Shown: positions 387-60,159 of the stretch, one piece after another
How the letters are laid out: each line of letters opens with the position of its first letter
Position numbering within the stretch: the first letter of the stretch is position 1
Assembly (NCBI RefSeq): GCF_001767395.1
Contig: NZ_CP017014.1
Coordinates: 1,240,001 to 1,304,000 of the forward strand
DNA from: Rhodococcus sp. WMMA185
Lineage (GTDB): Bacteria; Actinomycetota; Actinomycetes; Mycobacteriales; Mycobacteriaceae
Length of the DNA stretch: 64,000 bases
Reading direction: 5' to 3'
Position numbers and translations under genes: made by a program
Notes under the pieces: model-generated
What the model saw: the letters and a program-made list of their open reading frames with translations, nothing else
Told to the model about the DNA's origin: nothing
The model's database searches: none

Positions 387-4631
<4,245 letters not shown>

Positions 4632-4707
4632 TCCGCCGGGCGCAAGCGGCTACGCTGGTGCCCGAGAATGTCCATCGCACACTCGTACGACTTCAGGAGC
4701 CTAATCG

Positions 4708-6294
4708 GTGTTCGAATCCCTTTCCGACAGGTTGACCGGAGCCCTCAAGGATCTGCGCGGCAAGGGTCGCCTCTCCGGTGCCGACATCGATGCTACGTGC
4801 CGTGAGATCCGGTTGGCTCTGCTCGAGGCAGACGTCGCGCTTCCTGTGGTCCGAGCGTTCATCGCCAAGATCAAGGAGCGCGCCAAGGGGGTCGAGGTCT
4901 CGGCGGCGCTCAACCCTGCGCAGCAGGTGGTCAAGATCGTCAACGAGGAACTCGTCGGGATCCTCGGTGGCGAGACACGTCGATTGGCCCTCGCCAAGAC
5001 GCCGCCGACGGTCATCATGCTCGCCGGTCTGCAGGGTTCGGGTAAGACGACCCTGGCCGGCAAGCTCGCCAAGTGGTTGCGCGACCAGGGGCACACTCCG
5101 TTGCTGGTGGCCTGCGACCTGCAGCGCCCCGGTGCGGTCGGCCAGCTGCAGATCGTCGGTGAGCGTGCGGGGGCCACGGTGTTCGCCCCGCATCCCGGCA
5201 CGTCCGTAGGCGGCGGCGACAACGAGTTGGGCATCAGCGCTGCCGATCCGGTGGAGGTCGCGCGCGCCGGTGTCGAGGAGGCTCGCAACAAGCAGTTCGA
5301 CGTGGTCGTCGTCGACACCGCCGGCCGTCTCGGAATCGACGCCGATCTGATGGCGCAGGCCGCGGGAATCCGCGACGCCGTGAACCCGGACGAGACGATC
5401 TTCGTTCTCGACGCGATGATCGGTCAGGACGCGGTCAGCACCGCCGAGGCGTTCCGCGAAGGAGTCGGGTTCACCGGTGTCGTGCTCACCAAGCTCGACG
5501 GCGACGCGCGGGGCGGCGCCGCGCTCAGTGTGCGTGAGGTCACCGGCCAACCCATCCTGTTCGCCTCCACGGGTGAGAAGCTCGAAGATTTCGACGTTTT
5601 CCACCCCGACCGGATGGCCAGTCGCATCCTGGGTATGGGCGACGTGCTCAGCCTCATCGAGCAGGCCGAGCAGGTCTTCGACCAGAAGCAGGCCGAGGCG
5701 ACGGCCCAGAAGATCGGCGCAGGTGAGCTCACCCTCGAGGACTTCCTCGAGCAGATGATGGCCGTCCGCAAGATGGGGCCCATCGGCAACCTCCTGGGGA
5801 TGCTCCCCGGTGCCGGCCAGATGAAGGACGCCCTCGCGAATGTCGACGAGAAACAACTCGATCGCGTACAGGCCATCATCCGGGGCATGACACCCGCCGA
5901 ACGCGAGAACCCGAAGATCATCAACGCCTCCCGCCGGCTGCGGATAGCGAACGGTTCAGGCGTGAAGGTGTCCGACGTCAATCAACTCGTCGACCGCTTC
6001 TACGAGGCCCGCAAGATGATGGCTGCGATGGCGGGGCGCATGGGTATGCCGGGTTCGCGCAAGCCCCAGCGCAGCAAGAAGGGCAAGAAGGGCAAGAAGG
6101 GCGGCAAGGGGCCGACGCCACCGAAGGTCCGGGGAGGATTTCCGGGCGGAATGCCGGCAGGGTTCCCGGGTATGCCCCCCGGTGGCCTGCCCGCCGGCAT
6201 GCCGGACCTGTCGAAGATGCCCAAGGGTCTTGACGAATTGCCTCCCGGGCTCGAAGACATCGACTTGTCCAAGCTGAAGCTGCCGAAGAAGTAA
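4708..6294 (+). CDS. ffh: Signal recognition particle protein Ffh (SRP54)
   Basis: The GTPase subunit of SRP, which binds 4.5S RNA and signal sequences and delivers ribosomes to FtsY. The N domain is followed by the P-loop GLQGSGKTTLAGKLA (about 107-121), DTAGR and TKLDGDARGG in the G domain, then a methionine-rich M domain with the RNA-binding region around INASRRLRIANGSG. GTG 4708 has an AGGAG at 4695-4699. At 528 residues it is longer than the roughly 450-residue E. coli protein: after the M domain comes a Lys/Gly block (about 455-472) and a Gly/Pro/Met-rich tail with repeated GGMP/GFPG-like units. Similar tails are known in actinobacterial Ffh. Confidence 0.96.
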   Translation: MFESLSDRLTGALKDLRGKGRLSGADIDATCREIRLALLEADVALPVVRAFIAKIKERAKGVEVSAALNPAQQVVKIVNEELVGILGGETRRLALAKTPPTVIMLAGLQGSGKTTLAGKLAKWLRDQGHTPLLVACDLQRPGAVGQLQIVGERAGATVFAPHPGTSVGGGDNELGISAADPVEVARAGVEEARNKQFDVVVVDTAGRLGIDADLMAQAAGIRDAVNPDETIFVLDAMIGQDAVSTAEAFREGVGFTGVVLTKLDGDARGGAALSVREVTGQPILFASTGEKLEDFDVFHPDRMASRILGMGDVLSLIEQAEQVFDQKQAEATAQKIGAGELTLEDFLEQMMAVRKMGPIGNLLGMLPGAGQMKDALANVDEKQLDRVQAIIRGMTPAERENPKIINASRRLRIANGSGVKVSDVNQLVDRFYEARKMMAAMAGRMGMPGSRKPQRSKKGKKGKKGGKGPTPPKVRGGFPGGMPAGFPGMPPGGLPAGMPDLSKMPKGLDELPPGLEDIDLSKLKLPKK

Positions 6295-6297
6295 TCG

Positions 6298-7383
6298 GTG
6301 GGGGCCCTGCACTTTCGGGGGATCGGCCTGCCGGAGGAGTGCCCGGTCGAGTATTGGGTCGATCAGGGTGTCATCGCTGCCGAGCCGATTCCCGGGGCCG
6401 AGACCGTATGTGAGTCGGGATGGATTGTTCCCGGGCTGGTCGATGCGCACTGTCACGTCGGCATCCGGTTCGGTGGCGGTGGCGGCGAGAGTATCGACGG
6501 ACTGATCGCCCAGGCGAAGACCGAGCGCGACGCCGGAGTCCTGCTGATCCGTGACGCCGGTTCTCCGGTCGACACCCGGTGTGTCGACGACCGTCTCGAC
6601 CTGCCGCGCATCGTCCGGGCCGGACAGCACATCGCCGCCCCCAAGAGGTATATACGCGGGCTTCCTGTCGATCTCGAGGACGAAGCGCAACTGCCGGACG
6701 AGGTGGTTCGGCAGGCCAGAGCCGGTGACGGTTGGGTCAAGCTGGTCGGTGACTGGATCGACCGTTCCTCAGGCGATCTGGCCCCGCTGTGGAGCGACGA
6801 TATCCTCGTCGAGGCGATCGCGGCGGCACATCGAGAAGGCGCTCGCGTTACCGCGCACGTTTTCGCCGAGGATGCACTCCCGGGCCTGCTCGAGGCGGGA
6901 ATCGACTGCATCGAGCACGGGACCGGGCTCACCGACGAGACGATCGGACTGATGGCTACCCACGGCGCCGCGCTCGTCCCGACCATGATCAACATCGCGA
7001 CGTTCCCGCAGATCGCCGACTCCGCCGAGCGGTTCCCGATCTACGCCTCCCACATGCGTGACCTGCACTCGCGAGTCAAGGACACGATCGGTGCGGCTCG
7101 GGACGCGGGCATCCCCATCTATGCGGGCACCGACGCAGGCGGATCGATCGCCCATGGGCGGATCGCCGACGAGGTGGAGGAACTGAAGTCGGTCGGGCTG
7201 TCGCCGACGGAGGCGCTCGGTGCCGCGTGCTGGAATGCCCGTTCGTGGCTCGGCCATCGAGGACTCGAGGCAGGCGCACCCGCGGACCTGCTGGTCTTCC
7301 GGAACGACCCCCGTGCGAGCAGTGACGTTCTCTCCGCGCCCGATGTCGTCGTGTTGCGAGGGCAGGTCGTGAAGACCAGATGA
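6298..7383 (+). CDS. Metal-dependent amidohydrolase (imidazolonepropionase-like family)
   Basis: A 361-residue amidohydrolase-superfamily enzyme starting with GTG 3 bp after the ffh stop. The metal-site pattern is complete: the HxH motif in GLVDAHCHVG, a lysine in GWVKLVGDW that could bridge the metals, histidines in VTAHVF and CIEHGTG, and the late aspartate in AGTDAGGS. The substrate cannot be read from sequence; relatives include Xaa-Pro dipeptidases, imidazolonepropionases and other cyclic-amide hydrolases. An uncharacterised amidohydrolase sits beside ffh in mycobacteria too, so the pairing is conserved, but I know of no functional link to SRP. Confidence 0.85.
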   Translation: MGALHFRGIGLPEECPVEYWVDQGVIAAEPIPGAETVCESGWIVPGLVDAHCHVGIRFGGGGGESIDGLIAQAKTERDAGVLLIRDAGSPVDTRCVDDRLDLPRIVRAGQHIAAPKRYIRGLPVDLEDEAQLPDEVVRQARAGDGWVKLVGDWIDRSSGDLAPLWSDDILVEAIAAAHREGARVTAHVFAEDALPGLLEAGIDCIEHGTGLTDETIGLMATHGAALVPTMINIATFPQIADSAERFPIYASHMRDLHSRVKDTIGAARDAGIPIYAGTDAGGSIAHGRIADEVEELKSVGLSPTEALGAACWNARSWLGHRGLEAGAPADLLVFRNDPRASSDVLSAPDVVVLRGQVVKTR

Positions 7384-7410
7384 CCTTCGTTTTTCTCTCT
7401 CGGTGTTCGT

Positions 7411-7563
7411 CTGGCAGAATAAGGGGCTGTTCGTCGCATCCGGTTACGCACCGAGCGGCGGTCACAGGAAAGAGGCAAAACCGGGCGCGCTATTCCTGCG
7501 CGTCGCAGAATTGCACGTGACACGTGGGTGCACTCGTGTGCGCCCCGAAGGAGAAGTACAGCA
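7411..7563 (+). promoter_or_regulatory. Candidate promoter and long leader of rpsP
   Basis: The sequence CGTCTGGCAGAAT ends at 7420 with a -10-like CAGAAT (7415-7420). Almost the same string, CGTCTGGCACAAT, lies upstream of rplS at 13880. If it is the promoter, the rpsP transcript would carry a leader of about 135 nt ending in the AAGGAGAA Shine-Dalgarno at 7548-7555. The -35 region is not convincing. Confidence 0.35.
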
Positions 7564-8025
7564 GTGGCTGTCAAGATCAAGCTCACCCGGCTCGGCAAGA
7601 TCCGGAACCCTCAGTACCGCATCGTCGTTGCTGATTCCCGCACCCGTCGCAACGGTCGTGCGATCGAGACCATCGGCAAGTACCACCCCAAGGAAGAGCC
7701 CTCGCTGATCGAGGTCGATTCCGATCGCGCTCAGTACTGGCTCGGCGTCGGAGCCCAGCCCACCGAGCCTGTCGAGGCAATCCTCAAGATCACCGGTGAC
7801 TGGCAGAAGTTCAAGGGTCTCCCCGGTGCCGAGGGCACCCTGCGCGTCAAGGAAGCCCAGCCCACCAAGCTCGAACTGTTCCAGGCCGCACTCGCGCAGG
7901 CCGAGAACGAGCCCGCTGCCGAGGCCGTCACCCCCAAGAAGAAGAAGGCCAAGGCGGAAGCCAAGGATGACGCCGAGGCTCCCGCAGAAGCGGCTGCTGA
8001 GGACGCGGAGGCTGCGCAGAAGTGA
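7564..8025 (+). CDS. rpsP: 30S ribosomal protein S16
   Basis: A small-subunit assembly protein. The N-terminal 80-90 residues match S16 ([20 protein letters not shown], then [11 protein letters not shown] and a [13 protein letters not shown] segment). The GTG at 7564 is preceded at 8 bp by AAGGAGAA, and initiation there gives the expected N-terminus. The 153-residue product has a C-terminal extension of about 50 residues rich in Ala, Glu and Lys (including [10 protein letters not shown]) that is absent from E. coli S16 but common in actinobacteria. It opens the operon rpsP-khpA-rimM-trmD. Confidence 0.97.
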
Positions 8026-8264
8026 GTGCCGTCGTCGCCGATGCCGTAGAGCACCTCGTTCGTGGCATCGTCGCCAATCCCGACGACGTTCGTGTCGAGC
8101 TGATCACCGGGCGTCGGGGGCGCACTGTCGAGGTCCATGTCAATCCTGACGATCTCGGCAAGGTCATCGGACGGGGTGGTCGCACTGCGACCGCCCTGCG
8201 CACGCTGGTCTCCGGCATCGGTGGCCGCGGGATCCGGGTCGACGTCGTCGACACGGATCAATAG
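8022..8264 (+). CDS. khpA: KH-domain RNA-binding protein KhpA
   Basis: An 80-residue single KH-domain protein. The nucleic-acid-binding loop is visible as [15 protein letters not shown] after a typical beta-alpha lead-in ([25 protein letters not shown]). Family members (formerly YlqC) bind RNA together with KhpB/EloR and affect cell-wall growth in firmicutes. The GTG start overlaps the rpsP stop by 4 bp (GTGA), so translation is coupled. The rpsP-khpA-rimM-trmD order is conserved in actinobacteria. Confidence 0.93.
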
Positions 8265-8277
8265 GGGTCGTCCTCCG

Positions 8278-8850
8278 GTGGAGCTCGTCGTGGGCCGGGT
8301 CGCGAAGTCGCACGGCATCAGGGGTGAGGTCGTGGTCGAGGTTCGTACCGACGAACCCGAGAAGCGGTTCGCCGTCGGTGCGGTGCTGCGGGGTCGAAAG
8401 CCGCGCGAGCAGAATCTGAGTACCTACACGGTGGAAGCCGCCCGGGAACATTCCGGGCGGCTTCTGTTGTGCCTCGAGGGTGTCTCCGATCGCACGGGAG
8501 CAGATGCCCTGCGGGGCATGCTGTTCGTCATCGACAGCGCGGACCTCGAGCCGTCGGACGATCCCGACGAGTTCTACGACCACGAACTCGAGGGTCTGTC
8601 CGTGCGTCTCGTGGACGGAACCGAGGTGGGCACCGTCGTCGAGGTATTGCATTCGGCTGCAGGAGAATTGCTTTCGATCCGACGCGCGGGCGAACAGTCC
8701 GGCGAGCTCCTCGTTCCTTTCGTCGCCGCGATCGTCACGTCGGTGTCGGTGACCGGCGGCGTCATCGAGATCGACCCGCCGGAAGGGTTGCTCGACCCCG
8801 ATTTCGGTGATTCGGCCGATGGGATCCGTGACTCCGCCCATGGGAAGTGA
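8278..8850 (+). CDS. rimM: Ribosome maturation factor RimM
   Basis: A 16S rRNA processing and 30S head-assembly factor that binds S19. The protein has 190 residues. The N-terminal RimM domain begins [17 protein letters not shown], and the C-terminal PRC-barrel half contains [26 protein letters not shown] and ends with a family-typical [13 protein letters not shown] 8278 is chosen because the conserved domain begins immediately after it; the longer in-frame stretch upstream overlaps khpA and has no similarity to the family. It lies 13 bp after khpA and 10 bp before trmD. Confidence 0.94.
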
Positions 8851-8860
8851 GAGGGTAGGC

Positions 8861-9553
8861 ATGCGTCTCGACGTGGTCACCATCTTTCCCGAGTACCTCG
8901 AACCGTTGCGAACAGCGCTGCTGGGCAAGGCAATCGATAAGGGGTTGCTGTCCGTAGAGGTACACGACCTACGGAACTGGGCGCACGACGTGCACAAGGC
9001 AGTGGACGATTCGCCGTACGGCGGCGGTCCCGGAATGGTCATGAAACCTACCGTGTGGGGGCCGGCCCTCGATGACGTTCTGGCTGACGGTGACGACGAA
9101 TCGGACACCCTTCTCGTCGTTCCCACTCCCGCTGGGGTCCCCTTCACGCAGTCCACTGCCGAGCGTTGGACAGGGGAGAAGCACATCGTCTTCGCCTGCG
9201 GGCGTTACGAAGGAATCGACCAACGCGTCTTCGACGACGCCGCCCGCCGCGTGCGGGTCGAAGAGGTGAGCATCGGCGACTACGTGCTCATCGGAGGCGA
9301 GGCGGCCGTACTGGTGATGACGGAAGCCGTCGTCCGGCTGATCCCGGGTGTCCTGGGCAATCAGCAATCGCACCAGGAGGATTCGTTCTCGGACGGTCTC
9401 TTGGAGGGTCCGAGCTACACCCGTCCCGCCACATGGCGCGGACTCGACGTACCGCCGGTGTTGTTGTCGGGGGATCACGCCAGGGTGGCAGCCTGGCGCC
9501 GCGAGCAGGCGCTGCGGCGCACCGCCGAACGGCGCCCGGACCTGTTGCCCTGA
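8861..9553 (+). CDS. trmD: tRNA (guanine-N1-)-methyltransferase TrmD
   Basis: Methylates G37 of tRNAs using S-adenosylmethionine and prevents +1 frameshifting. The 230-residue protein begins [13 protein letters not shown], has the [12 protein letters not shown] motif, and carries the SPOUT trefoil-knot segment [20 protein letters not shown]. The C-terminal domain ([21 protein letters not shown]) is standard. ATG 8861 fits the family N-terminus. It is the last gene of the rpsP operon and converges on the minus-strand hydrolase gene, with only 1 bp between stops. Confidence 0.96.
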
Positions 9554-9554
9554 G

Positions 9555-10541
9555 CTAGTTTTGGATCCTCGACCAATCGTCTATCGAGCCGGTTGGGAAG
9601 AGCGTCCGCACCACGTCGGTCACCGTATCGCGGGCGTGTATGGCGCTGGCGTCCCCCGACGCATCTGTGTATGACGTATCGGGATAACCCTGTTGGCCGT
9701 TGCCGTAGGTGATGTTCTCCCTGGATGCAACGGCCAGAACGTAGCGGTTGTCCTCGCCGATCACCCCGGTGGACAGGTGGATCCACCTGCTCGCCACGCA
9801 GCACATCCAGCCCTGCTTCACCCCGACGGCATGTTCACCCGGTAGTCCGTCGGGAATGCCGAACCGCTGGTCATAGCCGTCGGTCCCCAGCGGAGTCGCC
9901 GAGTGAAGGTAGCCGAGGAACTCGGCGCTGCGCTCGGGCCCGATTCCGTCCCTGTCGTGGAGGAGGCCGACGTAGAAGTTCACCAGGTCGGAGGCCGTGG
10001 TCTCGGTGTTCCACCATGAGCCGTCGCGGGGCGCGGTGGTGGCGACGAGGCCGTAGCGCTGTGCCACGTCGGGAACGATGTTGCCGCCGCCGAGATCGGC
10101 CCAGAGCGTGCTGGCGGCGTTGTCGTCGGAGGACTCGAGCATCGGCTCGAGCAGCAGGTGGTCGTGCACGGAGAGCGGTCGCCCGCCGGTCGCGTCGAGG
10201 TGGAACAACTGGGCCGCAATGAACAGTTTGGACAGTGATGCCGATTCGATCGGCTGGTCACCCCCCGATTCCAGGTAGCTCCCCGTGGCGCGGTCGAGGA
10301 CGGCGATGGAGACGTCGGCGCCGCGGTCGGCGGCCGTTGCCACGGCGGCGGTCATGCGTTCGGTGATCGGTGGAACTGCGGGAACGTTCCTGCCGGAAAG
10401 GTGCTCGACACTACTTGCGGGTGTCGGAACTTCGGGGGTCGGAGCGGCGACGACCGTGTTCGTGTCTGTGGGAATCGTGCCGATGAGTGCCGCGCCCAGG
10501 AGCAGGACGAGGACTGCCAGGAACCAAGTCGGCCTGGGCAT
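9555..10541 (-). CDS. Exported serine beta-lactamase-like protein in the lppW position
   Basis: A 328-residue secreted protein with an N-terminal hydrophobic signal segment (about residues 6-24). It belongs to the penicillin-binding/class A beta-lactamase fold: SLSK (SxxK, in SASLSKLFIAAQL), SSDDN (like SxN), but KQG where KTG is expected. In M. tuberculosis the lipoprotein gene lppW occupies the same slot between trmD and rplS on the opposite strand. This protein has no lipobox cysteine, so it is probably released or signal-anchored. The ATG is preceded by AGGAGA at about 7 bp. Hydrolytic activity is uncertain because of the altered third motif. Confidence 0.75.
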   Translation of the reverse strand: MPRPTWFLAVLVLLLGAALIGTIPTDTNTVVAAPTPEVPTPASSVEHLSGRNVPAVPPITERMTAAVATAADRGADVSIAVLDRATGSYLESGGDQPIESASLSKLFIAAQLFHLDATGGRPLSVHDHLLLEPMLESSDDNAASTLWADLGGGNIVPDVAQRYGLVATTAPRDGSWWNTETTASDLVNFYVGLLHDRDGIGPERSAEFLGYLHSATPLGTDGYDQRFGIPDGLPGEHAVGVKQGWMCCVASRWIHLSTGVIGEDNRYVLAVASRENITYGNGQQGYPDTSYTDASGDASAIHARDTVTDVVRTLFPTGSIDDWSRIQN

Positions 10542-10603
10542 AGATTTCTCCTGAGAAACTCCGTGACGGCATCACCGCCGCCGCCATGGTTTCAGCCTAG
10601 CGG

Positions 10604-10617
10604 TAGGGTCCATTCCC
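10604..10617 (+). promoter_or_regulatory. Candidate promoter for a leaderless tex transcript
   Basis: TAGGGT (10604-10609) fits the TANNNT -10 element of actinobacteria. It lies 8 bp before the GTG start of tex, and no Shine-Dalgarno is present. This spacing would put the transcription start at or next to the start codon, giving a leaderless mRNA. Confidence 0.4.
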
Positions 10618-12909
10618 GTGATTCTCAGGACCGTCAACCAGCGCATTGCCGAGGAACTCGACGTTCGGGAAGGACAGGTCGCGGCCGCCGTGGACCTTCT
10701 CGACGGCGGAGCGACCGTGCCTTTCATCGCCCGCTACCGCAAGGAGGTCACCGGGGCGCTCGACGACGCCCAGCTCCGCCAACTCGAGGAACGGCTCCGA
10801 TACCTGCGGGAACTCGACGAGCGCCGGGTAGCGGTACTCGAGTCGATCGACTCACAGGGCAAGCTCGACGATCAGTTGCGGGGGCAGATCATGGCCGCCG
10901 ACACGAAGGCGCGCCTCGAAGACATCTATCTTCCTTTCAAGCCGAAAGTCCGCACGAAGGCGCAAATCGCGCGCGAAGCCGGCCACGAGCCGGTCGCCGA
11001 TGCACTGATCACCGATCCTTCGATCGATCCCGCTTCGTACACGGCGGAACAACTCGAGGGGGCGCGCGCCATCCTGGTCGAGCGTTTCGCGGAAGACGCC
11101 GATCTGGTGGGCGAGCTTCGCGAGCTGATGTGGACCCGCGGGCAGCTGGTGTCCGCGGTCCGTAAGGGCAAGGAGACCGAAGGAGCGAAGTTCGCGGACT
11201 ACTTCGAGTTCTCCGAGCCGTTCACCAAACTTCCGTCCCACCGGATTCTCGCGGTGCTGCGCGGGGAGAAGGAAGAGGTGCTCACCCTCACCCTGGCACC
11301 CGAGTCACAGGAGCCGGTCCCGGGCGAGCCGACGATCTACGAGGGCCACATCGCGGAACGCTTCGCCATCGCTGATCGGGGTCGGCCCGCCGACCGTTGG
11401 TTGCTGGACACGGTGCGCTGGGCGTGGCGTACCAAGCTGCTGGTCAAGCTGGGTATCGACACCAGGATGCGACTGCGCCAGTCGGCGGAGAAGGATGCGG
11501 TCGACGTCTTCGCAGCCAATCTGCGCGACCTGCTATTGGCCGCACCCGCCGGTACCCGCGCTACGATGGGCCTCGACCCCGGGTTCCGGACCGGCACCAA
11601 GGTTGCCGTCGTGGACGCCACAGGCAAGGTGGTGGCCCACGAGACCATCTACCCTCATCAGCCACAGAACAATTGGGACGCCTCCCTGGCCACTCTCGCA
11701 GGCCTCGTCGCCCGGCACGGTGTCGAGCTCATCGCGATCGGGAACGGCACAGCCTCCCGTGAGACGGACGCGCTGGCAACCGAACTCATCGCAAAGTTGG
11801 GCAGGACCAACCTGACGAAGATCGTGGTGTCCGAGGCCGGAGCGTCGGTGTATTCGGCGTCTGCCTATGCATCAGCCGAGTTGCCCGATCTCGATGTGTC
11901 GATTCGCGGTGCTGTTTCCATCGCCCGACGTCTGCAGGATCCCCTCGCGGAATTGGTGAAGATCGATCCGAAATCGATCGGCGTCGGCCAGTACCAGCAC
12001 GACGTATCGGAGACGCTGCTCGCGCGGTCGCTGGGCGCCGTCGTCGAGGACGCGGTGAACGCAGTCGGAGTCGATGTGAACACAGCGTCCGCGCCGCTGC
12101 TTGCGCGCGTATCCGGTATCTCTGGGTCGCTGGCCGAGAGCATCGTCGCGCACCGCGACCGCAGCGGCCCGTTCCGGAACCGGCAAGGGCTCAAGGACGT
12201 CACGAGGCTCGGTCCCAAAGCCTTCGAGCAGTGTGCGGGCTTCCTCCGCATTCCAGCCGGCGACGACCCCCTCGACGCATCGAGCGTCCACCCGGAGGCG
12301 TATCCCGTGGTGCGCAGGATCGTCTCTGCGAGCGGTACCGATGTTCGTGAGGTCATCGGCAACACGGCTGTTCTGCGCCGTCTGAATCCTGCAGATTTCG
12401 TCGACGACCGGTTCGGTCTGCCCACGGTCACGGACATCATCGGAGAGCTCGAGAAGCCCGGGCGTGACCCGCGCCCGGAGTTCAAGACGGCCACGTTCGC
12501 GGCGGGCATCGAGAAGGTGTCGCATCTGAAGCCGGGAATGACGCTCGAGGGGGTCGTCACCAACGTGGCGGCATTCGGTGCGTTCGTCGACGTCGGCGTC
12601 CATCAGGATGGCCTCGTCCACGTTTCGGCGATGTCCCGCAACTTCGTCAAGGATCCTCGTGACGTCGTGAAGTCGGGTGACGTGGTGAAGGTGAAGGTTC
12701 TCGAGGTCGATGAGGCCCGACAGCGGATCTCGCTGACCCTACGGCTTGACGACGAGGTCGCGGCGGGCGGTCGCAAGAGCGAGGCCCCCGCCGGCGGCCC
12801 GAAACGGGAGCGCCGCGGTGGAAAGCCGCAGCAGGGGCGACGCGAATCACGGCAGGCTCCCGGCGGTTCGATGGCCGACGCCCTGCGAAAGGCGGGCTTC
12901 GGCAAGTAA
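10618..12909 (+). CDS. tex: RNA-binding transcription accessory protein Tex
   Basis: A 763-residue Tex/YhgF homologue linked in other bacteria to transcript release and stress tolerance. Domains in order: helical Tex N-terminus (INQRIAEELDVREGQV, PFIARYRKEVTGALDD), a YqgF/RuvC-like domain (TMGLDPGFRTGTKVAVVD at about 318-335), a helix-hairpin-helix region (LARVSGISGSLAESIVAHR), and a C-terminal S1 RNA-binding domain (LKPGMTLEGVVTNVAAFGAF). A basic Gly/Arg/Lys tail of about 45 residues follows S1. The GTG start is set by the conserved N-terminus and the -10 element just upstream. Confidence 0.95.
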   Translation: MILRTVNQRIAEELDVREGQVAAAVDLLDGGATVPFIARYRKEVTGALDDAQLRQLEERLRYLRELDERRVAVLESIDSQGKLDDQLRGQIMAADTKARLEDIYLPFKPKVRTKAQIAREAGHEPVADALITDPSIDPASYTAEQLEGARAILVERFAEDADLVGELRELMWTRGQLVSAVRKGKETEGAKFADYFEFSEPFTKLPSHRILAVLRGEKEEVLTLTLAPESQEPVPGEPTIYEGHIAERFAIADRGRPADRWLLDTVRWAWRTKLLVKLGIDTRMRLRQSAEKDAVDVFAANLRDLLLAAPAGTRATMGLDPGFRTGTKVAVVDATGKVVAHETIYPHQPQNNWDASLATLAGLVARHGVELIAIGNGTASRETDALATELIAKLGRTNLTKIVVSEAGASVYSASAYASAELPDLDVSIRGAVSIARRLQDPLAELVKIDPKSIGVGQYQHDVSETLLARSLGAVVEDAVNAVGVDVNTASAPLLARVSGISGSLAESIVAHRDRSGPFRNRQGLKDVTRLGPKAFEQCAGFLRIPAGDDPLDASSVHPEAYPVVRRIVSASGTDVREVIGNTAVLRRLNPADFVDDRFGLPTVTDIIGELEKPGRDPRPEFKTATFAAGIEKVSHLKPGMTLEGVVTNVAAFGAFVDVGVHQDGLVHVSAMSRNFVKDPRDVVKSGDVVKVKVLEVDEARQRISLTLRLDDEVAAGGRKSEAPAGGPKRERRGGKPQQGRRESRQAPGGSMADALRKAGFGK

Positions 12910-38324: not shown

Positions 38325-39314
38325 GTGCGCGGACTTGGCATCGATCTCGGAACCACGAACACCGTCGTGGGGACCCTCGAAGACGGGATAGTCCTGAACG
38401 AACCGTCTTTCATGCTGGTTCGGAACAAGGATCCGCACCGCGCCCTTGCGATCGGCAAGGAGGCTCGGAGGCTCATCGGTCGTACACCCACAGGGATCAG
38501 GCAAGTGCGGCCCATGCGCGACGGCGTCATCGTGGATCTGGAGTTGGCCCGAGCATTTCTTGCGGCCGTCATCGAGCAGGCCGCCCCACGCAGATGGTAT
38601 GGCCGGCGCCGCAAGGCCGTCATCTCGGCTCCGGCCGGGGCCACCCCACTCGAGCGTCGCGCACTGCTCGAGGTCGGGCATGAGGCAGGCCTACGGAAGG
38701 TCGGTCTGATCCCGGAACCGGTGGCGGGTGCTCTCGGGTGCGGTGTCAATCCGCTCGAGCCTCGCACTCATCTCATCTTGAACATCGGCGGCGGCACCTC
38801 GGAGGTCACCGCCATCTGTTTCGGTGGCGTGATCTCGCACCGCAGTTGCCCACTGGCGGGGGAGGAACTCACCGAGGCGTTGCACCAATACCTGCGCGAA
38901 GAGCACCAGACCATCGTCGGCGAGCTGACCGCCGAGCGCGCCAAAATGGGCACACCCGACACTGCCGACGGGGAATCGCTCGTCGTCGAGGGACTCGACG
39001 CGGTCACGGGCCGCGCACGACTGCTCTCGCTCGACGTAGGGGAGATCGTGGAAGCGCTGCGGCCGACCACGACAGGAATCGTGCAGACGTTGACCGCCTG
39101 CCTGGAGGACCTTCCCCCGCAGGCGATCAGTGACGTGATGTCCGAAGGGGTGCTGGTGATCGGGGGCGGTTCAATGCTCCGCGGACTGTCTCAACTGTTC
39201 GAAGAGTCGTTTGGCCTCCCGGTGAAGACCGCCGAGCGGCCACTGACGTGCGTCGCCGAGGGCGCTACTGCATGTCTGGATCACCCAGAGATCGTTGCCG
39301 CCTTCAGCGGCTGA
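38325..39314 (+). CDS. mreB: MreB-like actin-family protein
   Basis: A 329-residue actin/Hsp70-superfamily ATPase, close in length to MreB (335-350). The phosphate-1 loop is GLGIDLGTTNTVVG, phosphate-2 is LNIGGGTSEVTAI and the adenosine region is GVLVIGGGSMLRGLSQLFEE. MRPMRDGVIVDLELA and a GLIPEPVAGALG segment are also MreB-like. MreB filaments organise lateral wall synthesis with RodA and PBP2. GTG 38325 follows a GGGAGG. It converges on a RodA-PBP fusion gene, with no mreC or mreD here. Membrane-binding residues are not obvious. Its presence is unusual for a tip-growing mycolic-acid actinobacterium. Confidence 0.85.
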   Translation: MRGLGIDLGTTNTVVGTLEDGIVLNEPSFMLVRNKDPHRALAIGKEARRLIGRTPTGIRQVRPMRDGVIVDLELARAFLAAVIEQAAPRRWYGRRRKAVISAPAGATPLERRALLEVGHEAGLRKVGLIPEPVAGALGCGVNPLEPRTHLILNIGGGTSEVTAICFGGVISHRSCPLAGEELTEALHQYLREEHQTIVGELTAERAKMGTPDTADGESLVVEGLDAVTGRARLLSLDVGEIVEALRPTTTGIVQTLTACLEDLPPQAISDVMSEGVLVIGGGSMLRGLSQLFEESFGLPVKTAERPLTCVAEGATACLDHPEIVAAFSG

Positions 39315-39484
39315 TCACCGAGGCGGTGCCTAGCTGATGCTGCTGGGGCGGTGCCGCACTGATGTCGCTGAAGCGCTCCCTCGCTGAAGTCACCGAGGTG
39401 GCGCTGTGCCGATGTCGCCGGGGTGGTGCCTCGCTGAAGTTACCGGGGTGGTGCCTCGCTGAAGTTACCGGGGTGGTGCCGGGG
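39310..39484. repeat. Seven tandem 25-bp repeats across two convergent gene ends
   Basis: Seven consecutive 25-nt units fill 39310-39484 with an unbroken period: starts at 39310, 39335, 39360, 39385, 39410, 39435 and 39460. The unit is close to TGAAGTTACCGGGGTGGTGC followed by CTCGC. The last two copies are identical over their first 21 bases, and the left-hand copies are more diverged. The first unit contains the mreB stop codon and the last contains the stop of the convergent RodA-PBP gene. The period is not a multiple of three, and there are no spacers. Confidence 0.9.
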
Positions 39485-42350
39485 CCGGACGTTCCGCGAG
39501 GTAGCGCTCGAGGATCGACATGGCCACGGGGCCTGATGTCGCCGAACCGAATCCCCCGCCACGGACCATTACCGTGACGACGATTTCGGGAGACTCGAAG
39601 GGCACGACCGCGGAGAACCAAGCGTCGAGACCATCGCCCGGTGCCGACGGATCCTCAGCCGTTCCGGTCTTGGAGCCGGCTGTGATCGGCAGACTGGCGA
39701 GCTGCCCGCCCGTACCGGCAGCGGCCGAAGCCCGCATGCCGGCGCGGACCGGGTCGAGCCGATCGTCGAAGGGAAGCCGATGAGGCTCAGCGGTCGGAAT
39801 CGACGTGCCCTCCCCGGGTCCGTACGCGCCGGCAAGTTGTGGAGTGACCATCGCTCCGGTAGCGATGCCAGACGTCCACCCCGCCACTTGCAGTGGGGTT
39901 GCCGTTACTGTGCCCTGCCCGATGCCCATCAACACCGTCGAGCCGGGATACCAAATCGCCCCGATGTCGCCGACCGACTCAGGTGTCCCCAGGAATCCTG
40001 CGGACTCGCCGGGTAGATCGATCCCTGAGCGCCGACCCACACCCAATTGGTCTGCGACCGTGGCGATCCGCTCGGGACCGAGGAGTAGGGCGAGCTTGTA
40101 GAAGTACACGTTGTCCGACCACTGGATCGCTTGCAGCAGGTTGTTCGGGCCCATCGGCTGCCAATTCGCGAATGTGTGCCCGCCGTAGGTGAAAGCGGCA
40201 CCGGTCGGGATCGCCTCATCCGGATCCAGGACCTGATCCTCCGCGTTCGCCGAGGCGACAACGATCTTGAATGTCGAGCCGGGTGGCGCGGCGGTCTGGA
40301 ACGCGTGGTTGAGCATCCGACTGGGCCCCGGCCCCTCCGTTTGGGCGGCCAGTGCGACGGCATCGACGGGAGGACCGTACACGTTGTTGTCGTACCCGGG
40401 GACGCTGGCGAGCGCCAGGATGGCGCCGGTGCGCGCGTCCATCACCACCGCAGCGCCGAGGTCGCCCCCGCTGCCGCGGACTGCCTGGGCGAGTGCGTCG
40501 GTCGCCACATTCTGCAATCCGATGTCCAAGTGCAGTCGCAGGTCGTGACCCGGCACTGGATCAACGCGTTCTCCCGGACCGACCACATTTCCAGTCGGGT
40601 CGACGTATAGGCACTGCTTGCCATCGGTGCCGCGCAGCAGGGCGTCGTATTGCTTCTCGAGTCCCGCACTGCCGACCCGCGATCCGAGTGCGAGCTGCGG
40701 CCAGCGTTCCATGTCCTGCGGATCGCCGATGCCGACGTATCCGAGGACGGAGGCGAGTGAATCCCCGTACGGATAGTGCCGACGTCCGGAGGGGACGATG
40801 AGGACTCCTGGGATCTGCGCATCGATGATTTGTCGAGCCTGATCGGGCGCGACCCTGCCGACGACAGTCTCCATTTCCCCTACGCCGCGTTCCCCCAGGG
40901 TGTTTGTCAGCTCGTCCTGAGAAGTCCCGAGCAACGCGCCCAGCTCACCGAGCGTGGCGGGGTCGTTCTCTTCGAACATTCGGGTGACCACCGAAATGGT
41001 GTATTCGGCAACGTTGGTCGCCAACGGTACGCCGTTCCGGTCGAGGATCTGACCGCGCTCGGCAGGCAGACGGATACAGCGCGTCATCTGTTCATCGCTC
41101 AACGCGCGCAGTTCCGAACCGCGCTCGCCCTGCAACTGCCAGGCGAACACCGACATCGCGACGAGGAGTGCGGTGACCGCAGCGGTACCCACCGTCATGC
41201 CCCGAGGCCGTCGCCGACGTGTGGACGGCTGGGCCCACAGCGGGCGGGCGACCCCGTCTCGGCGCACCGCGAGCACCAGCCCGATTGCAACGAATCCGAC
41301 GAGTGCGACTGTGCCGCCGTAGCTGAACATCGGGAGCGGCATCCCGGTGTGGGGCAGTAGCGACAGGCTCGCACCGATCGACAGGACCGCGTGGATCCCG
41401 AACAAGCCGCCGATGCCCGCGGCCACGAGCGCGGCTTCTTTAGTGCGTGCCCGTCGTGCAGCTAGTGCGGCACGCCACGTGATCACCAAGCTGGCTGCCA
41501 CGACTGCAATGCCGGCGAACAGCCCCCACCCGTATACGACGGATGCGAACGCAAGGTCGTGCTCCGATTCGGGAAGGTATTGCGCTCTCAGGTCGTACAT
41601 GGGGTCTAGCGCCAGGCCCCACAGCCCACCGCTGCCTATTGCGATGTCGGCTTGAAGCGATGCCCAGCCCGACCCGCTGGGGTCGGCATCGCTCGACAGG
41701 AACACCTGGATCCGTTCGAGTTGGTACGGGCGGAGGAAGAGACCGAGGATGGGCAACGCGGCGATTCCCAGTCCGAACAGCGGCAGAAGGGGCAACATCG
41801 GCACCCTGCCGAGGACAAGCATCAACGCCGCTACCGCTGCCAACACCACGGCACTCGACAGGTCGGGTTGGAGAGCGACCAGGGCAATCACGCCGCTCGC
41901 GATCAACAGCATCGTCATCAGCCGACCGAACGTGTAGCCACCGGACAGGATGGACGCCGCCACCAGGACCAGACCGAGCTTGGCGATTTCGGCGGGCTGA
42001 ATGGAAAACAGGCCGAAATCCAGCCAGCGTTGTGCACCTTTGACCGATACCCCGACGAACGGCACCGCCATCAGCATCGCGACCGATACCCCGAGGGTCA
42101 CCCACCCGAATCGTCGCAGCTTGCTCACCCGCATCCGCGACAGGAGCAACATCACTCCGATGCCGACGACGGCAAAGATCGCGTGGCGCACCGCTTGCGA
42201 CGTCAGTCCGATCGACACCAAGTTGAGAAGCCCTAGGACGGTGAGAACGACCGCCGCCGTGACAATCCAGGGATCGGACTCCCGATCTTGTCCCCGCACG
42301 GGGACGTCGTCCACGGGAGCGTCGTCCACGGGAACGCCGCCGCTACTCAT
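39465..42350 (-). CDS. SEDS glycosyltransferase-class B PBP fusion (RodA/FtsW-PBP2)
   Basis: A 961-residue peptidoglycan synthase joining two enzymes that are normally separate. Residues about 25-365 form a SEDS polytopic domain with the catalytic aspartate in YLPESEHDLAFA (Asp265) and the SYGGTVAL motif. A basic linker (about 364-386) leads to a further transmembrane helix (388-404) and a class B PBP: the opening RGQILDRNG (432-440), SxxK at Ser692-Lys695, SDN at 745-747 and KTG at 894-896. All catalytic motifs are present. The ATG shares a base with the upstream stop (TGATG). It should both polymerise and cross-link glycan strands. RodA versus FtsW assignment is uncertain. Confidence 0.92.
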   Translation of the reverse strand: MSSGGVPVDDAPVDDVPVRGQDRESDPWIVTAAVVLTVLGLLNLVSIGLTSQAVRHAIFAVVGIGVMLLLSRMRVSKLRRFGWVTLGVSVAMLMAVPFVGVSVKGAQRWLDFGLFSIQPAEIAKLGLVLVAASILSGGYTFGRLMTMLLIASGVIALVALQPDLSSAVVLAAVAALMLVLGRVPMLPLLPLFGLGIAALPILGLFLRPYQLERIQVFLSSDADPSGSGWASLQADIAIGSGGLWGLALDPMYDLRAQYLPESEHDLAFASVVYGWGLFAGIAVVAASLVITWRAALAARRARTKEAALVAAGIGGLFGIHAVLSIGASLSLLPHTGMPLPMFSYGGTVALVGFVAIGLVLAVRRDGVARPLWAQPSTRRRRPRGMTVGTAAVTALLVAMSVFAWQLQGERGSELRALSDEQMTRCIRLPAERGQILDRNGVPLATNVAEYTISVVTRMFEENDPATLGELGALLGTSQDELTNTLGERGVGEMETVVGRVAPDQARQIIDAQIPGVLIVPSGRRHYPYGDSLASVLGYVGIGDPQDMERWPQLALGSRVGSAGLEKQYDALLRGTDGKQCLYVDPTGNVVGPGERVDPVPGHDLRLHLDIGLQNVATDALAQAVRGSGGDLGAAVVMDARTGAILALASVPGYDNNVYGPPVDAVALAAQTEGPGPSRMLNHAFQTAAPPGSTFKIVVASANAEDQVLDPDEAIPTGAAFTYGGHTFANWQPMGPNNLLQAIQWSDNVYFYKLALLLGPERIATVADQLGVGRRSGIDLPGESAGFLGTPESVGDIGAIWYPGSTVLMGIGQGTVTATPLQVAGWTSGIATGAMVTPQLAGAYGPGEGTSIPTAEPHRLPFDDRLDPVRAGMRASAAAGTGGQLASLPITAGSKTGTAEDPSAPGDGLDAWFSAVVPFESPEIVVTVMVRGGGFGSATSGPVAMSILERYLAERPAPAPPR

Positions 42351-43576
42351 CAGCAGGTCACTTTCTCGGCAGGCACGTACAGCGGCTCCGAAGCAGCAAC
42401 TGCAGGGGCGCTCGTGACCGCAGCGACGGCCAGGGCGTAACCGGGCGGCAGGAAGGTCTTGCTCAACCCGTACACGTCGTCCCGGCCTGGCTCGGTGCGC
42501 ACGGTGATGTCTCCGCCTGCCTGTACTTCGCCGGTGCATCGGTCGTAGACGTTCAGCTTCCAGGCGACCGTGTCGGTGGTCGCAGCCGGATCCAGGCGAA
42601 CGTCCACTCGTATGGCGCACGGCTGTCCCGCGCTACACGATCCGTCCGCGAAACTCGCGGTGACACCAGTGATCTGGCCTGCGCTGGCAGGGGCTCCGGT
42701 CTGGACGGGTGCCGGCTCGACTCCGTCGGTATTCGTCGCGGATATGGACGGGTCCGGCGGGACGACCGGCGGCGGGGACACCGGCCGGAGAGTGTTCTCC
42801 TCAGAGAAGTCCACTGGGTTGACGACGGTGTTCCAACCTTTGTTCAGCTCCGTCCATACGCGGGGACCCGAAACGACTGCCCCGACGACTACAACGAGCG
42901 TGAGCACGGTGAGCGTTCCCTGACGCCATGAGGGCCTTCTCCGCCGAGTGTGCCAGGCGCTTCGGACCGGCGGATACCAGCCGGTGGATGGCGTGAGGGA
43001 CCCCGCAGGCACGTTGGTCCGATCTTCCATCGCACGACCATCCGGAATGGGCCGATCCATCGCCGCCCTGACGAGTTCGCCGATCTGGCTCCTCCGTCTG
43101 GGCTCCTCGGCAGGGTCGAGTTCGGGAGCGATTACCAGACCAACTCGACGCACCAAATCCTCGAGATCCGTTGCATCTGGTACCGATTCGATTACAAGAT
43201 TGCCGAACTCCGGCCCCCGGCAGTTGGTCGCGATACGGCGGAGCAGGACCGTGATCGTATCGTTGATCTCGGCGCACGACGAGTCGATCCCGACGCGGTC
43301 GATTGTGAGCCGCCCGCCGTCGGACACCATCACGGTGTCATCAAGTGGGGCGGTTCGGCAGCCACCGGCGCCGCCCGCCAGTTCGAGCTGGCCAGCCAAG
43401 TCGCTAACCAGCTGCGCAGCTTGCGGCGGCGTCAGCCGCGCGACCTCGAGAAGCGCCGTGAGGCTGACAGCGTCAAGGCTGCCACCCGAGTCGTCATCGA
43501 TCAGTTCAGGTGGATCAGGTCGGTCCGCAGCGGGCTCGCTGTTGCTCGCGTGGACCCCCAAGGCTGCTTCGTTCAT
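42350..43576 (-). CDS. Single-pass membrane protein with kinase-like remnant, coupled to the SEDS-PBP gene
   Basis: A 408-residue protein of unknown function. The cytoplasmic N-terminal part (about 1-215) contains a stretch, LTPPQAAQLVSDLAGQLELA followed by VMVSDGGRLTIDRVGI, that resembles the C-lobe of Ser/Thr kinases. The HRD and DFG positions would read CRT and DRV, so it would be inactive. A transmembrane helix (TLTVLTLVVVVGAVVSG, about 220-238) and a Pro-rich, cysteine-bearing external domain follow. ATG 43576 is used; in-frame ATG 43597 and GTG 43615 are alternatives. Its stop overlaps the fusion gene start, so they are cotranslated. Confidence 0.7.
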   Translation of the reverse strand: MNEAALGVHASNSEPAADRPDPPELIDDDSGGSLDAVSLTALLEVARLTPPQAAQLVSDLAGQLELAGGAGGCRTAPLDDTVMVSDGGRLTIDRVGIDSSCAEINDTITVLLRRIATNCRGPEFGNLVIESVPDATDLEDLVRRVGLVIAPELDPAEEPRRRSQIGELVRAAMDRPIPDGRAMEDRTNVPAGSLTPSTGWYPPVRSAWHTRRRRPSWRQGTLTVLTLVVVVGAVVSGPRVWTELNKGWNTVVNPVDFSEENTLRPVSPPPVVPPDPSISATNTDGVEPAPVQTGAPASAGQITGVTASFADGSCSAGQPCAIRVDVRLDPAATTDTVAWKLNVYDRCTGEVQAGGDITVRTEPGRDDVYGLSKTFLPPGYALAVAAVTSAPAVAASEPLYVPAEKVTC

Positions 43577-44155
43577 CGCGCATCCCCGAAACGACATGCC
43601 TCCCGCGGGTGACACCGAACCGAAGCGGGTGGGCGGTGGACTGGGCTTTTGCTTGCTCCTGTCGAAACCCTTGCGTCGAAACCCTTGCGCCTGCTCGAAC
43701 TATTAAACTCCGATTCGGTCAATCGCGAGGAGAAATCGCAAAGGCAAAAGTGTGGCAATGTCTAGCCGACACGCGCATCGCCGCCAAAAACCTTTCGCTG
43801 AACCAGGATCTGGCCGCGCAGCAATCGGTGCACGGCACCCGCAGCCGATGTAGCAAATCGCATCGGTAGTCTCTGTAGCTTCGCCCGAAGGGGAGCCATG
43901 ACGAACGCCGCCGACAAGGTCACCCGGATTTCGTAGGACTCGTCGACCATGCGGCAGCCGAGGGGAGCGCGAGCACCGCCCGGCACGCCGGCAGCTCGAG
44001 CACTGGGTCAGGGTGGGTCGCGAGATGTCGAATCAGCGCCGGGTCGCGCGCCGACCGCGTGGGCACGGCTGCGCAACGGTCCTGCTCGATGAACAGGGCC
44101 GCGACACGGGCGTCGCTGCTTGATTTATTTTCCGTCCAACGCAACTGTTACCAGC
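43577..44155. other. 579-bp stretch without a convincing gene
   Basis: It lies between the membrane-protein gene and xerC, both transcribed away from it. The AT-richer part near 43690-43740 probably contains the leftward promoter. Two short minus-strand frames (43920-44144 and 43762-43986) overlap in different phases; the first has HEAT/LRV-like wording (RDPALIRHLATHPDPV) and could be a frameshifted remnant of a gene. A TTGATTTATTTT run at 44120-44131 may belong to the xerC promoter. Neither frame has a Shine-Dalgarno. I see no tRNA or attachment site. Confidence 0.4.
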
Positions 44156-58344: not shown

Positions 58345-60159
58345 ATGAACCCTCGTCTCTTTCCCCACGCACGCGTCGTCAGGTCGATCGCCTTCGGCGG
58401 GGTCGCTGTGCTGATGATTGGCGTCGCGGCATGCACACCCCGACCGGGTGGTCCCGAGCCCGCCGCTCGAGCGTTTCTGGCGGCCTTTGCCGAACGCGAT
58501 TCCGAGCGGGCCGCCGCCCTCTCGGACCGCCCTGACAACGCGATGCAGACGCTCGAGTCGACGTGGGAGTCGTTGCAGGCCGAGTCCCTCGAGGCGGAGA
58601 CCACCCACGTCCGAGTAACCGGCGACACCGCCACCGTGGGGTACACCTATGAATGGCAACTGCCGAAAGACCGGGTGTGGACATATTCAGGCGAACTCCA
58701 GATGGGCCGACGTGGCGGCGACTGGGCCGTGCGCTGGAGTGCGACCAACGTCCATCCGCGGCTAGGGGATCGTCAGACGATGTCGCTGCGGTCCGTTGCG
58801 GCGCCCAGGGCCCGCGTCAACGAGCGCGCCGGATCGGACGTTCTCGTGCCCGGTGTCGTGTATCGCGTCAAGTTCGATGCGAGGGAATCGGACGATGTGA
58901 TCCGCAGCGCGCAGTCGCTGACGTCGGCGCTGGCGGAGTTCGACAACACCCTCACCGCGCAGTCGATCGCGGAGTCCGCAACCGCGGTGAAAGGTGACTA
59001 CCTCGTCACCCGGCTGAGATCCGAGGACTACGACCGAGTCGAGGGTGTGCTCGGCGCGATCCCCGGTGTGACCGTGTCAGACGAGGCCGACCTGGTGGCT
59101 ACCGATCGGACGTTCGCCCCCGATCTCATCGGCCGGGTCAAGCAGACGGTGATCGATGAGGTCGACGGTGAGGCCGGATGGAGAGTGGTCACCGTCAATC
59201 AGAACGGCGTCGACACCGCCGTGCTCACCGAGACACCGCCGAAGCCTGTCCCGTCGTTCTCGATCAGCCTGGATCGGCCCATTCAGGTTGCCGCGCAGAA
59301 TGCGGTCAACGCCCGACCCGAGCAGGCCATGATGGTGGTCATTGCTCCCTCGACCGGTGACATCCTCGCCGTGGCGCAGAACGAGGCCGCCGACAGAGAC
59401 GGACCCGTGGCCCTGACGGGCCTCTACCCCCCGGGCTCGACGTTCAAGATCGTGACCGCGGGAGCGGCGATCTCGTCGGACCTCGCGACACCTCACACAT
59501 TGGTTCCGTGCCCCGGCCTCATCGTGATCGGCGACCGGAGCGTGCCGAACTACAACGAATTCGCGCTCGGGACGGTCCCGATGGCCACGGCGTTCGCCCG
59601 TTCGTGCAACACCTCGTTCGCGAAACTGGCGAGTGAGATGCAGTCGGATGCGCTGACCGTCGCGGCCTCACAGTTCGGAGTCGGGGCCGACTATGAGGTC
59701 GTGGGCTTGCCCACCTACACGGGCTCGGTGCCCGAAGCAGACGATCTGGTCCAGCGAACAGAGGACGGCTTCGGGCAGGGCAGGGTCGTGGTCAGCCCAT
59801 TCGGTATGGCTTTGGCAGCGGCGACCGTAGCGAATGGCTCGACGCCGGTTCCGTCGCTGATCGCCGGACGGGAAACGTCGATCGACGAAGACCCTCCGCC
59901 GATCAGCCCTGAGATGGTCGACGGACTCCGCGAGATGATGCGCCTCGTGGTCACGAGTGGCACGGCCGGGAGAATCGGGGATCAGGGCGAGGTGTACGGC
60001 AAGACGGGCGAAGCCGAGGTCGAGGGTGGGTCGCACGCCTGGTTCGTCGGCTACCGCGGCGATCTCGCCTTCGCAACGCTGGTGGTGCGCGGGGGAAGCT
60101 CCGACAACGCTGTTGCCGTGACTCGTGACATGTTCGCGGCGCTGCCGGAGGGGTATTGA
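58345..60159 (+). CDS. Penicillin-binding lipoprotein (class B-type transpeptidase)
   Basis: A 604-residue membrane-anchored transpeptidase. A lipoprotein signal ends in VAAC (Cys30). An NTF2-like MecA-N domain (about 35-145) and a dimerisation region precede the transpeptidase domain: SxxK at Ser365-Lys368 (PPGSTFKIV), SCN in ARSCNTSFAKL, and KTGEAEVEGG near the end. The M. tuberculosis homologue is a putative PBP lipoprotein between the GNAT gene and mapB. It probably cross-links peptidoglycan or acts in its remodelling. Confidence 0.93.
   Translation: MNPRLFPHARVVRSIAFGGVAVLMIGVAACTPRPGGPEPAARAFLAAFAERDSERAAALSDRPDNAMQTLESTWESLQAESLEAETTHVRVTGDTATVGYTYEWQLPKDRVWTYSGELQMGRRGGDWAVRWSATNVHPRLGDRQTMSLRSVAAPRARVNERAGSDVLVPGVVYRVKFDARESDDVIRSAQSLTSALAEFDNTLTAQSIAESATAVKGDYLVTRLRSEDYDRVEGVLGAIPGVTVSDEADLVATDRTFAPDLIGRVKQTVIDEVDGEAGWRVVTVNQNGVDTAVLTETPPKPVPSFSISLDRPIQVAAQNAVNARPEQAMMVVIAPSTGDILAVAQNEAADRDGPVALTGLYPPGSTFKIVTAGAAISSDLATPHTLVPCPGLIVIGDRSVPNYNEFALGTVPMATAFARSCNTSFAKLASEMQSDALTVAASQFGVGADYEVVGLPTYTGSVPEADDLVQRTEDGFGQGRVVVSPFGMALAAATVANGSTPVPSLIAGRETSIDEDPPPISPEMVDGLREMMRLVVTSGTAGRIGDQGEVYGKTGEAEVEGGSHAWFVGYRGDLAFATLVVRGGSSDNAVAVTRDMFAALPEGY

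Follow-up and report, generated by a model that had tools for sequence, protein, structure and literature searches.

The 64,000-nucleotide stretch analysed here (the window) comes from Rhodococcus sp. WMMA185 (contig NZ_CP017014.1, positions 1,240,001 to 1,304,000). It carries a gene in which a SEDS glycan polymerase and a class B penicillin-binding protein (PBP) are joined in one chain. This fusion gene, a neighbouring mreB and the gene of a single-pass membrane protein, here called UP, constitute one conserved gene set, as judged by co-occurrence and synteny. We consider that the fusion is probably the peptidoglycan synthase of a compact three-gene module (mreB, fusion, UP) guided by MreB. 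An earlier note on this DNA had taken the fusion for an additional synthase with its two activities fixed at 1:1. That much is supported, both halves lying in one chain with their catalytic residues intact. A free-standing synthase as the whole story is not supported, because the gene is tied to MreB and to UP, neither of which the note mentions. The features concerned are as follows.

38325..39314, plus strand: MreB of the module subfamily, 329 residues, convergent with the fusion (PF06723, E 2.6e-91)
39322..39480, no strand: tandem repeats with a unit of 25 bases where the ends of mreB and the fusion gene converge
39465..42350, minus strand: RodA-like SEDS/PBP2-like class B PBP fusion, 961 residues, read from the ATG at 42350 to a stop that ends at 39465
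39507..40457, minus strand: Transpeptidase domain, residues 632-948 (PF00905, E 4e-51), with S692, K695, SDN at 745 and KTG at 894
40581..41069, minus strand: PBP_dimer dimerisation or pedestal domain, residues 428-590 (PF03717, E 7.4e-32)
41199..41261, minus strand: cytoplasmic basic linker, fusion residues 364-384, a candidate MreB docking site
41259..42203, minus strand: SEDS domain, residues 50-364 (FTSW_RODA_SPOVE, PF01098, E 4.5e-60)
41556-41558, minus strand: catalytic D265 of the fusion, in PESEHD
42350..43615, minus strand: UP, single-pass membrane protein directly upstream of the fusion, 408 residues in database record P0123, 421 from the first GTG
42353..42688, minus strand: extracellular beta-sandwich domain of UP, residues 310-421
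42821..42928, minus strand: membrane-spanning helix of UP, modelled at residues 230-265
43055..43477, minus strand: cytoplasmic domain of UP, residues 47-187, predicted kinase-C-lobe (KIND-like) fold

Three genes kept together

How firmly are the three genes associated? Among 251 genomes of the GTDB family to which the host belongs, fusion, MreB and UP were found in the same 45, spread over 6 of 31 genera. Of the 21 genomes listed for the genus of the window, nine have all three genes and 12 have none of them. All but one of the 45 positive genomes (44) match the fusion over its full length. In a sample of 394 genomes of the class, the fusion was detected at E <= 1e-150 in six, and the module type of MreB in exactly those six, at 383-882 bits vs no more than 252 bits for every other MreB; an MreB of any type occurs in 269 of the 394. 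Two Nocardioides genomes among the six positives have a canonical MreB as well. These family and class searches scored 2 to 8 candidates per genome under strict cut-offs, and far-diverged fusions could escape them.

With one genome scanned for each species, 289 stretches were found to encode a relative, and the best 80 of them are the named loci. These come from Rhodococcus, Prescottella, Skermania, Hoyosella, Haloechinothrix, Amycolatopsis, Pseudonocardia, Actinomycetospora, Geodermatophilus, Blastococcus, Modestobacter, Nocardioides and Phytoactinopolyspora, among others, and include metagenome-assembled genomes (MAGs) labelled Chloroflexi and Dormiibacterota. A full fusion frame is present in 77 of the 80; in the other three (L111, L118 and L155) the match reaches the end of the contig. 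MreB accompanies the full frame in 76 of the 77 loci and UP in 70. The mreB gene lies downstream and convergent in 68 of the 76, upstream on the same strand in six, and downstream on the same strand in two. Since the link of the fusion to MreB and UP is kept in several gene orders, it survives rearrangement. The sole locus without MreB (L112) starts 139 bases ahead of the fusion, on the flank that carries mreB in the six named loci of Actinomycetospora. In those six (L106, L113, L117, L119, L125 and L128) mreB is upstream, on the same strand, and has low profile scores. The mreB and fusion frames, taken from the first start codon, overlap on paper in five of the 76 loci; the gap exceeds 400 bases in four (432, 1003, 1146 and 7003), and in the last of these (L135) mreB is in two frames. 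Four of the seven loci that lack UP have fewer than 140 bases upstream of the fusion. Pairwise distances among the three proteins, measured at the 69 loci that have all three with L135 dropped, correlate at r 0.93, 0.83 and 0.81, permutation maxima being less than 0.1.

Might the fusion nevertheless be a self-standing additional 1:1 synthase whose neighbours are incidental? The earlier note had called it an extra synthase, and it is indeed the third SEDS protein of the genome, beside FtsW and the RodA encoded upstream of pknA/pknB-like kinase genes. One genome (G230), moreover, has a second copy of the fusion (locus L068, contig C3 of 299 kb, 7982-10807) with neither MreB nor UP in the 18 kb read. 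Set against these observations are the joint presence and joint absence of the three genes across the 251 genomes, their association at the named loci in several gene orders, and the restriction of the module MreB type to fusion-bearing genomes in the class sample. We regard incidental neighbours as unlikely.

Several results of the survey do count against a module of three fixed parts. The lone second copy in G230 is one. UP is absent from three MAG loci that have room for it upstream (L121, L136 and L157), so that it is not universal. The distance correlation leaves shared descent uncontrolled. Finally, co-inheritance points to a functional link rather than to contact.

A RodA-like polymerase and a PBP2-like transpeptidase in one chain

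The plus strand of 39465-42350 is broken up by stops; the minus strand is one frame of 961 codons, the ATG of which overlaps the stop of UP as TGATG. A whole SEDS domain and a whole class B PBP are encoded there, as described in the earlier note, which gave no strand; the motifs lie at the positions that it stated, and the three Pfam domains all score far above their cut-offs. PF01098 matches the SEDS half at 204 bits (curated cut-off 26.4). The PBP half has every mark of its class: PBP_dimer and Transpeptidase domains, SxxK (STFK, with S692), SxN (SDN at 745), KTG at 894, and a membrane helix of its own. About ten SEDS helices are followed by the basic linker and then by a separate hydrophobic helix near 385-403, the helix layout being that of a low-confidence model. 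D265, in PESEHD, aligns with an aspartate of the RodA chain 6bar that is alanine in chain 6bas; we take this position to be D255 of Thermus thermophilus RodA and 6bas its inactive mutant. D265, S692, K695, S745, K894 and G896 are identical in 87 of 87 non-identical fusions, a set drawn from 96 frames scoring above 1000 bits plus the window, duplicates being counted once. SDN is the one motif that varies in the wider family: at its last position (fusion residue 747, window 40110-40112) about 52% of the 87 have D.

Which SEDS-PBP pair does the fusion resemble? Among solved structures the nearest sequences are RodA (6bar, 6pl5 and 8tj3 chain B) and MrdA (7kis and 8tj3 chain C), the latter being the best matches of the PBP half. 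Like RodA-PBP2 of Escherichia coli (MrdB-MrdA), it unites a SEDS polymerase and a class B PBP with all catalytic residues; unlike that pair it is one chain, and its hosts lack a match to MreC in 25 of 28 genomes and to MreD in 26 of 28 (the MreD model missed at least one). Some comparisons tell against so close an identification. The RodA equivalog TIGR02210 scores 225.4 bits, below its cut-off of 336.7, and the fusion is therefore named RodA-like; TIGR03423 (PBP2/MrdA), the best of 22 families, scores 402.9 bits vs a cut-off of 455, hence PBP2-like. The structure model of the fusion is of low confidence (mean pLDDT, the predicted local distance difference test, 60.7), and in Foldseek its top matches are PBP3, E. 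coli PBP2 ranking ninth. It is therefore too poor for claims about the interface.

Could two adjacent genes have been merged by an assembly or frame artefact? Of 8000 proteins scored in a search with the fusion, 2889 reached E <= 0.001. The two-domain architecture recurs throughout the 120 listed: 119 have all three Pfam domains, and the remaining one is on a contig of 1.8 kb. Full frames in the same order, with a linker of nearly constant length, were read in 87 non-identical fusions. Nothing speaks for an artefact in the fusion itself; the only case with fusion and mreB in pieces is G193, a genome 79% complete (locus L077, both frames broken). Since 44 of the 45 positive genomes of the family match over the whole length and 77 of the 80 named loci have the frame complete, a sequencing error of the kind that the earlier note had raised can be ruled out. 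Two of the proteins matched (P0020 and P0029) are named as plasmid-borne.

The linker itself is closely conserved. It is 19-22 residues long in all 87 fusions (21 in 72), its mean net charge is +5.5 (range 1 to 9), and L371, W372, P382 and R383 are invariant. Its mean conservation, 0.673, may be compared with 0.646 for the SEDS domain, and its LW was seen in none of ten standalone SEDS tails compared. In E. coli, MreB contacts the C-terminal tail of RodA and the cytoplasmic N-terminus of PBP2 (PMC13327600; this and the other papers cited by PMC number were available in excerpt, and what is attributed to them extends to those excerpts). The linker is where these two MreB-contacting segments would be merged, and for that reason it is the likely docking site of MreB. 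An alternative use of the linker is as a cleavage site that yields two ordinary subunits. Partial cleavage was seen when an engineered RodA-PBP2 fusion, joined by a GGGS linker, was purified (PMC6207328). The natural linker, in contrast, keeps its length and its invariant residues in 87 of 87 fusions, and 119 of the 120 listed matches are whole fusions; we think cleavage very improbable.

MreB, the membrane partner UP and the rest of the Rod complex

The window MreB belongs to its family by a wide margin (306 bits to PF06723, cut-off 27). It exceeds the cut-off of PRK13927 (298.9 bits vs 293), lies under that of TIGR00904 (281 vs 365.75), contains the motif DLGTTNT, and has as its best solved relatives the MreB chains 1jce and 4czf. 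Its phosphate-2 motif, NIGGGTSE, has N for the usual D, a change shared by a few relatives; its ATPase may therefore differ, a reservation to be set against an MreB-guided synthase. The two-component genes beside mreB were considered as a further part of the module and rejected, for in R. marinonascens (L075) they are on the other side.

What kind of protein is UP? No Pfam or NCBIfam family scores over its cut-off. The Pfam matches below cut-off have E values of 0.02 to 4.2, and the family changes from one member to the next. None of the relatives found by protein search (51 and 53 proteins) bears a functional name; the word-based search overlooked UPs of Pseudonocardia and Geodermatophilus that were found in the loci. 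The predicted structure of the cytoplasmic domain has the fold of a kinase C-lobe and best matches the KIND domain of Spire. The likeness is one of fold, with 13-19% identity in these alignments. The HRD and DFG of an active kinase are absent at the aligned positions, and comparison with PDB sequences gave no significant match (Spire KIND E 0.054, StkP 0.29). Four cysteines of the extracellular domain are kept in all aligned members. A KIND-like domain inside and a beta domain outside would be the layout of a transmembrane coupler, and we propose UP as a candidate regulator.

Is the rest of the Rod complex present in the hosts? MreC was found in none of 12 fusion genomes of the family (the window's own included), in neither of two family genomes without the fusion, and in three of 16 other fusion genomes, all Nocardioides: three of 28 in total. 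A canonical mre cluster was read for two of these three. Judged by MreC, most fusion hosts do not have the canonical Rod complex. MreD was matched in two of the 28, both Nocardioides and one of them under the curated cut-off, and had no match in the window's own genome. The force of these absences is limited on three counts. The MreD profile recognised both mre-cluster controls, yet gave no match in G594, a genome with MreC as well as an mre cluster; its silence therefore counts little alone. The 28 genomes include MAGs (e.g. G621 and G623), where single absences mean little. As for RodZ, HTH_25 matches generic helix-turn-helix proteins in 14 of 14 genomes and is uninformative.

We envisage the following sequence of events. 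Polymerisation of lipid II would fall to the SEDS half, with D265 as its key residue, and cross-linking to the PBP half, through S692. Filaments of MreB would give the synthase its position and orientation, docking on the merged linker. Since most hosts lack a match to MreC and to MreD, the fusion would either need no activator or be switched by UP. MreC alters how PBP2 interacts with RodA, an effect that MreD suppresses (PMC7793260); a pair already fused may need them less. Artificial RodA-PBP2 fusions are active (PMC6207328, PMC10449877), and E. coli MreB together with activated RodA-PBP2 partly suffices as a minimal elongasome without MreCD and RodZ (PMC13327600). The module resembles that elongasome in having MreB and RodA-PBP2 without MreCD, with contacts where the fusion has its linker. 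The E. coli system is made by mutation, has two chains and, as described in the excerpt, has no UP; the module is natural and conserved.

Origin and possible role

From where did the fusion come? In trees of 40 SEDS, 37 PBP and 30 MreB sequences, the SEDS halves, the PBP halves and the module MreBs each form one clade (100/100 in every case). The MreB tree drew a long-branch warning, Actinomycetospora (L106) being among the branches concerned. The SEDS half has as its neighbour the RodA of the actinobacterial mre cluster (94/91, unstarred) and is far from RodA of the pkn cluster. Profile scores run in the same order, mre-type RodA (174-215 bits) above FtsW (134-158) and pkn RodA (62-86), ranges that leave out the partial frames L193 (96 bits) and L194 (127 bits). 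The PBP half lies in an open fork with mre PBP2 and FtsI; its exact sister is unsettled because FtsI is a long branch.

The actinobacterial mre cluster (mreB-mreC-mreD-PBP2-rodA) thus resembles the module in placing MreB beside RodA and PBP2 genes, and its RodA is the nearest to the SEDS half. It differs in having separate genes, mreC and mreD, an MreB of a separate clade, and the order PBP2 then RodA in the clusters read, against RodA then PBP in the fusion. The rodA-pbpA pair of the pkn cluster shares the latter order and lies beside membrane kinases, but its genes are separate and both of its halves are in clades other than those of the fusion. Descent from this pair was rejected, the SEDS halves grouping with mre-type RodA instead. 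Also rejected was a Streptomyces fusion between two neighbouring MreBs: at the three loci read, other genes occupy the gap, and RodA and PBP2 are encoded in separate frames. At L195 (G524, 3818-8238) MreB, PBP2 and RodA frames are consecutive, a possible unfused relative, with no room for MreC or MreD between MreB and PBP2.

Within the SEDS tree, RodA of the pkn cluster joins Haloechinothrix with Pseudonocardia (93/93). The fusion places Haloechinothrix among Hoyosella, Skermania and Rhodococcus (100/95) and pairs Pseudonocardia and Geodermatophilus (100/95), groupings that the MreB tree repeats (85/77 and 99/96). Because these differ from the groupings of pkn RodA, the set of fusion, MreB and UP may have been transferred as a unit.

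When would such a module act? The mode of growth described for Actinobacteria is apical and led by DivIVA (PMC3296230, PMC4255298), which weighs against an MreB-guided synthase. One alternative keeps the mechanism and changes its time or place: the module would make wall for a special stage, such as coccoid or resting cells, spores or fragmentation, rather than for rod elongation. MreB homologues of Streptomyces serve sporulation only (PMC3296230; see also PMC4255298). The window's own genome retains the RodA upstream of the pkn-like kinases, and the module, being absent from 12 of the 21 own-genus genomes listed, is dispensable for basic growth there. On the other side, several of the host genera do not sporulate. 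We hold the special stage to be a serious possibility, falling somewhat short of an even chance.

The reading that we favour remains that of an MreB-guided three-gene module. A bolder form of it can be offered tentatively, at about the same strength as the special stage. The module would be a natural minimal elongasome, in which a one-chain RodA-PBP2 is driven by its own MreB subfamily through the merged linker, and MreC and MreD, perhaps RodZ too, are replaced by UP with its KIND-like, kinase-derived domain and beta-sandwich. It would represent a second, independently reduced coupling of actin to the wall, beside DivIVA-led polar growth, in mycolic-acid bacteria.

How much of this is new? The earlier note doubted the novelty of the fusion, and with reason. 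A 2023 structural paper states that SEDS-PBP fusions in a single open reading frame exist, citing McLeod, 'The complete genome...' (PMC10449877). These are of the same kind as ours, and the excerpt mentions them in passing, without MreB, UP or a linker. The excerpt of PMC8406291 has no passage on 'fusion', and the passages of PMC6403190 and PMC3989709 are on other matters. The McLeod paper is presumably that on the genome of Rhodococcus RHA1. No description of UP, or of MreB beside a SEDS-PBP fusion, was found in titles and abstract openings of the open-licence literature, subscription papers lying outside that scope. The SEDS-PBP fusion as such is already known. Within the searches made, what is new is the conservation of a module that has an MreB clade of its own, mostly lacks MreC and includes UP as a KIND-like partner in the membrane; the mechanism proposed for it is likely. 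Elsewhere in the window (58345-60159) lies one more gene with a transpeptidase domain, the start of which reads like that of a lipoprotein.

How MreB communicates with RodA-PBP2, and what MreC, MreD and RodZ contribute, are open questions in the field. In the module, evolution appears to have shed at least MreC in most hosts and to have welded together the tails that contact MreB, so that the coupling of MreB to the synthase may be reducible to one short linker with invariant residues. The single chain offers itself for structural work on the SEDS-class B PBP pair. Of the Rod components, Mycobacterium tuberculosis and allied species, which are relatives of Rhodococcus, are described as having RodA-PBP2 alone (PMC8262863); the module places an MreB in bacteria of the Rhodococcus type.

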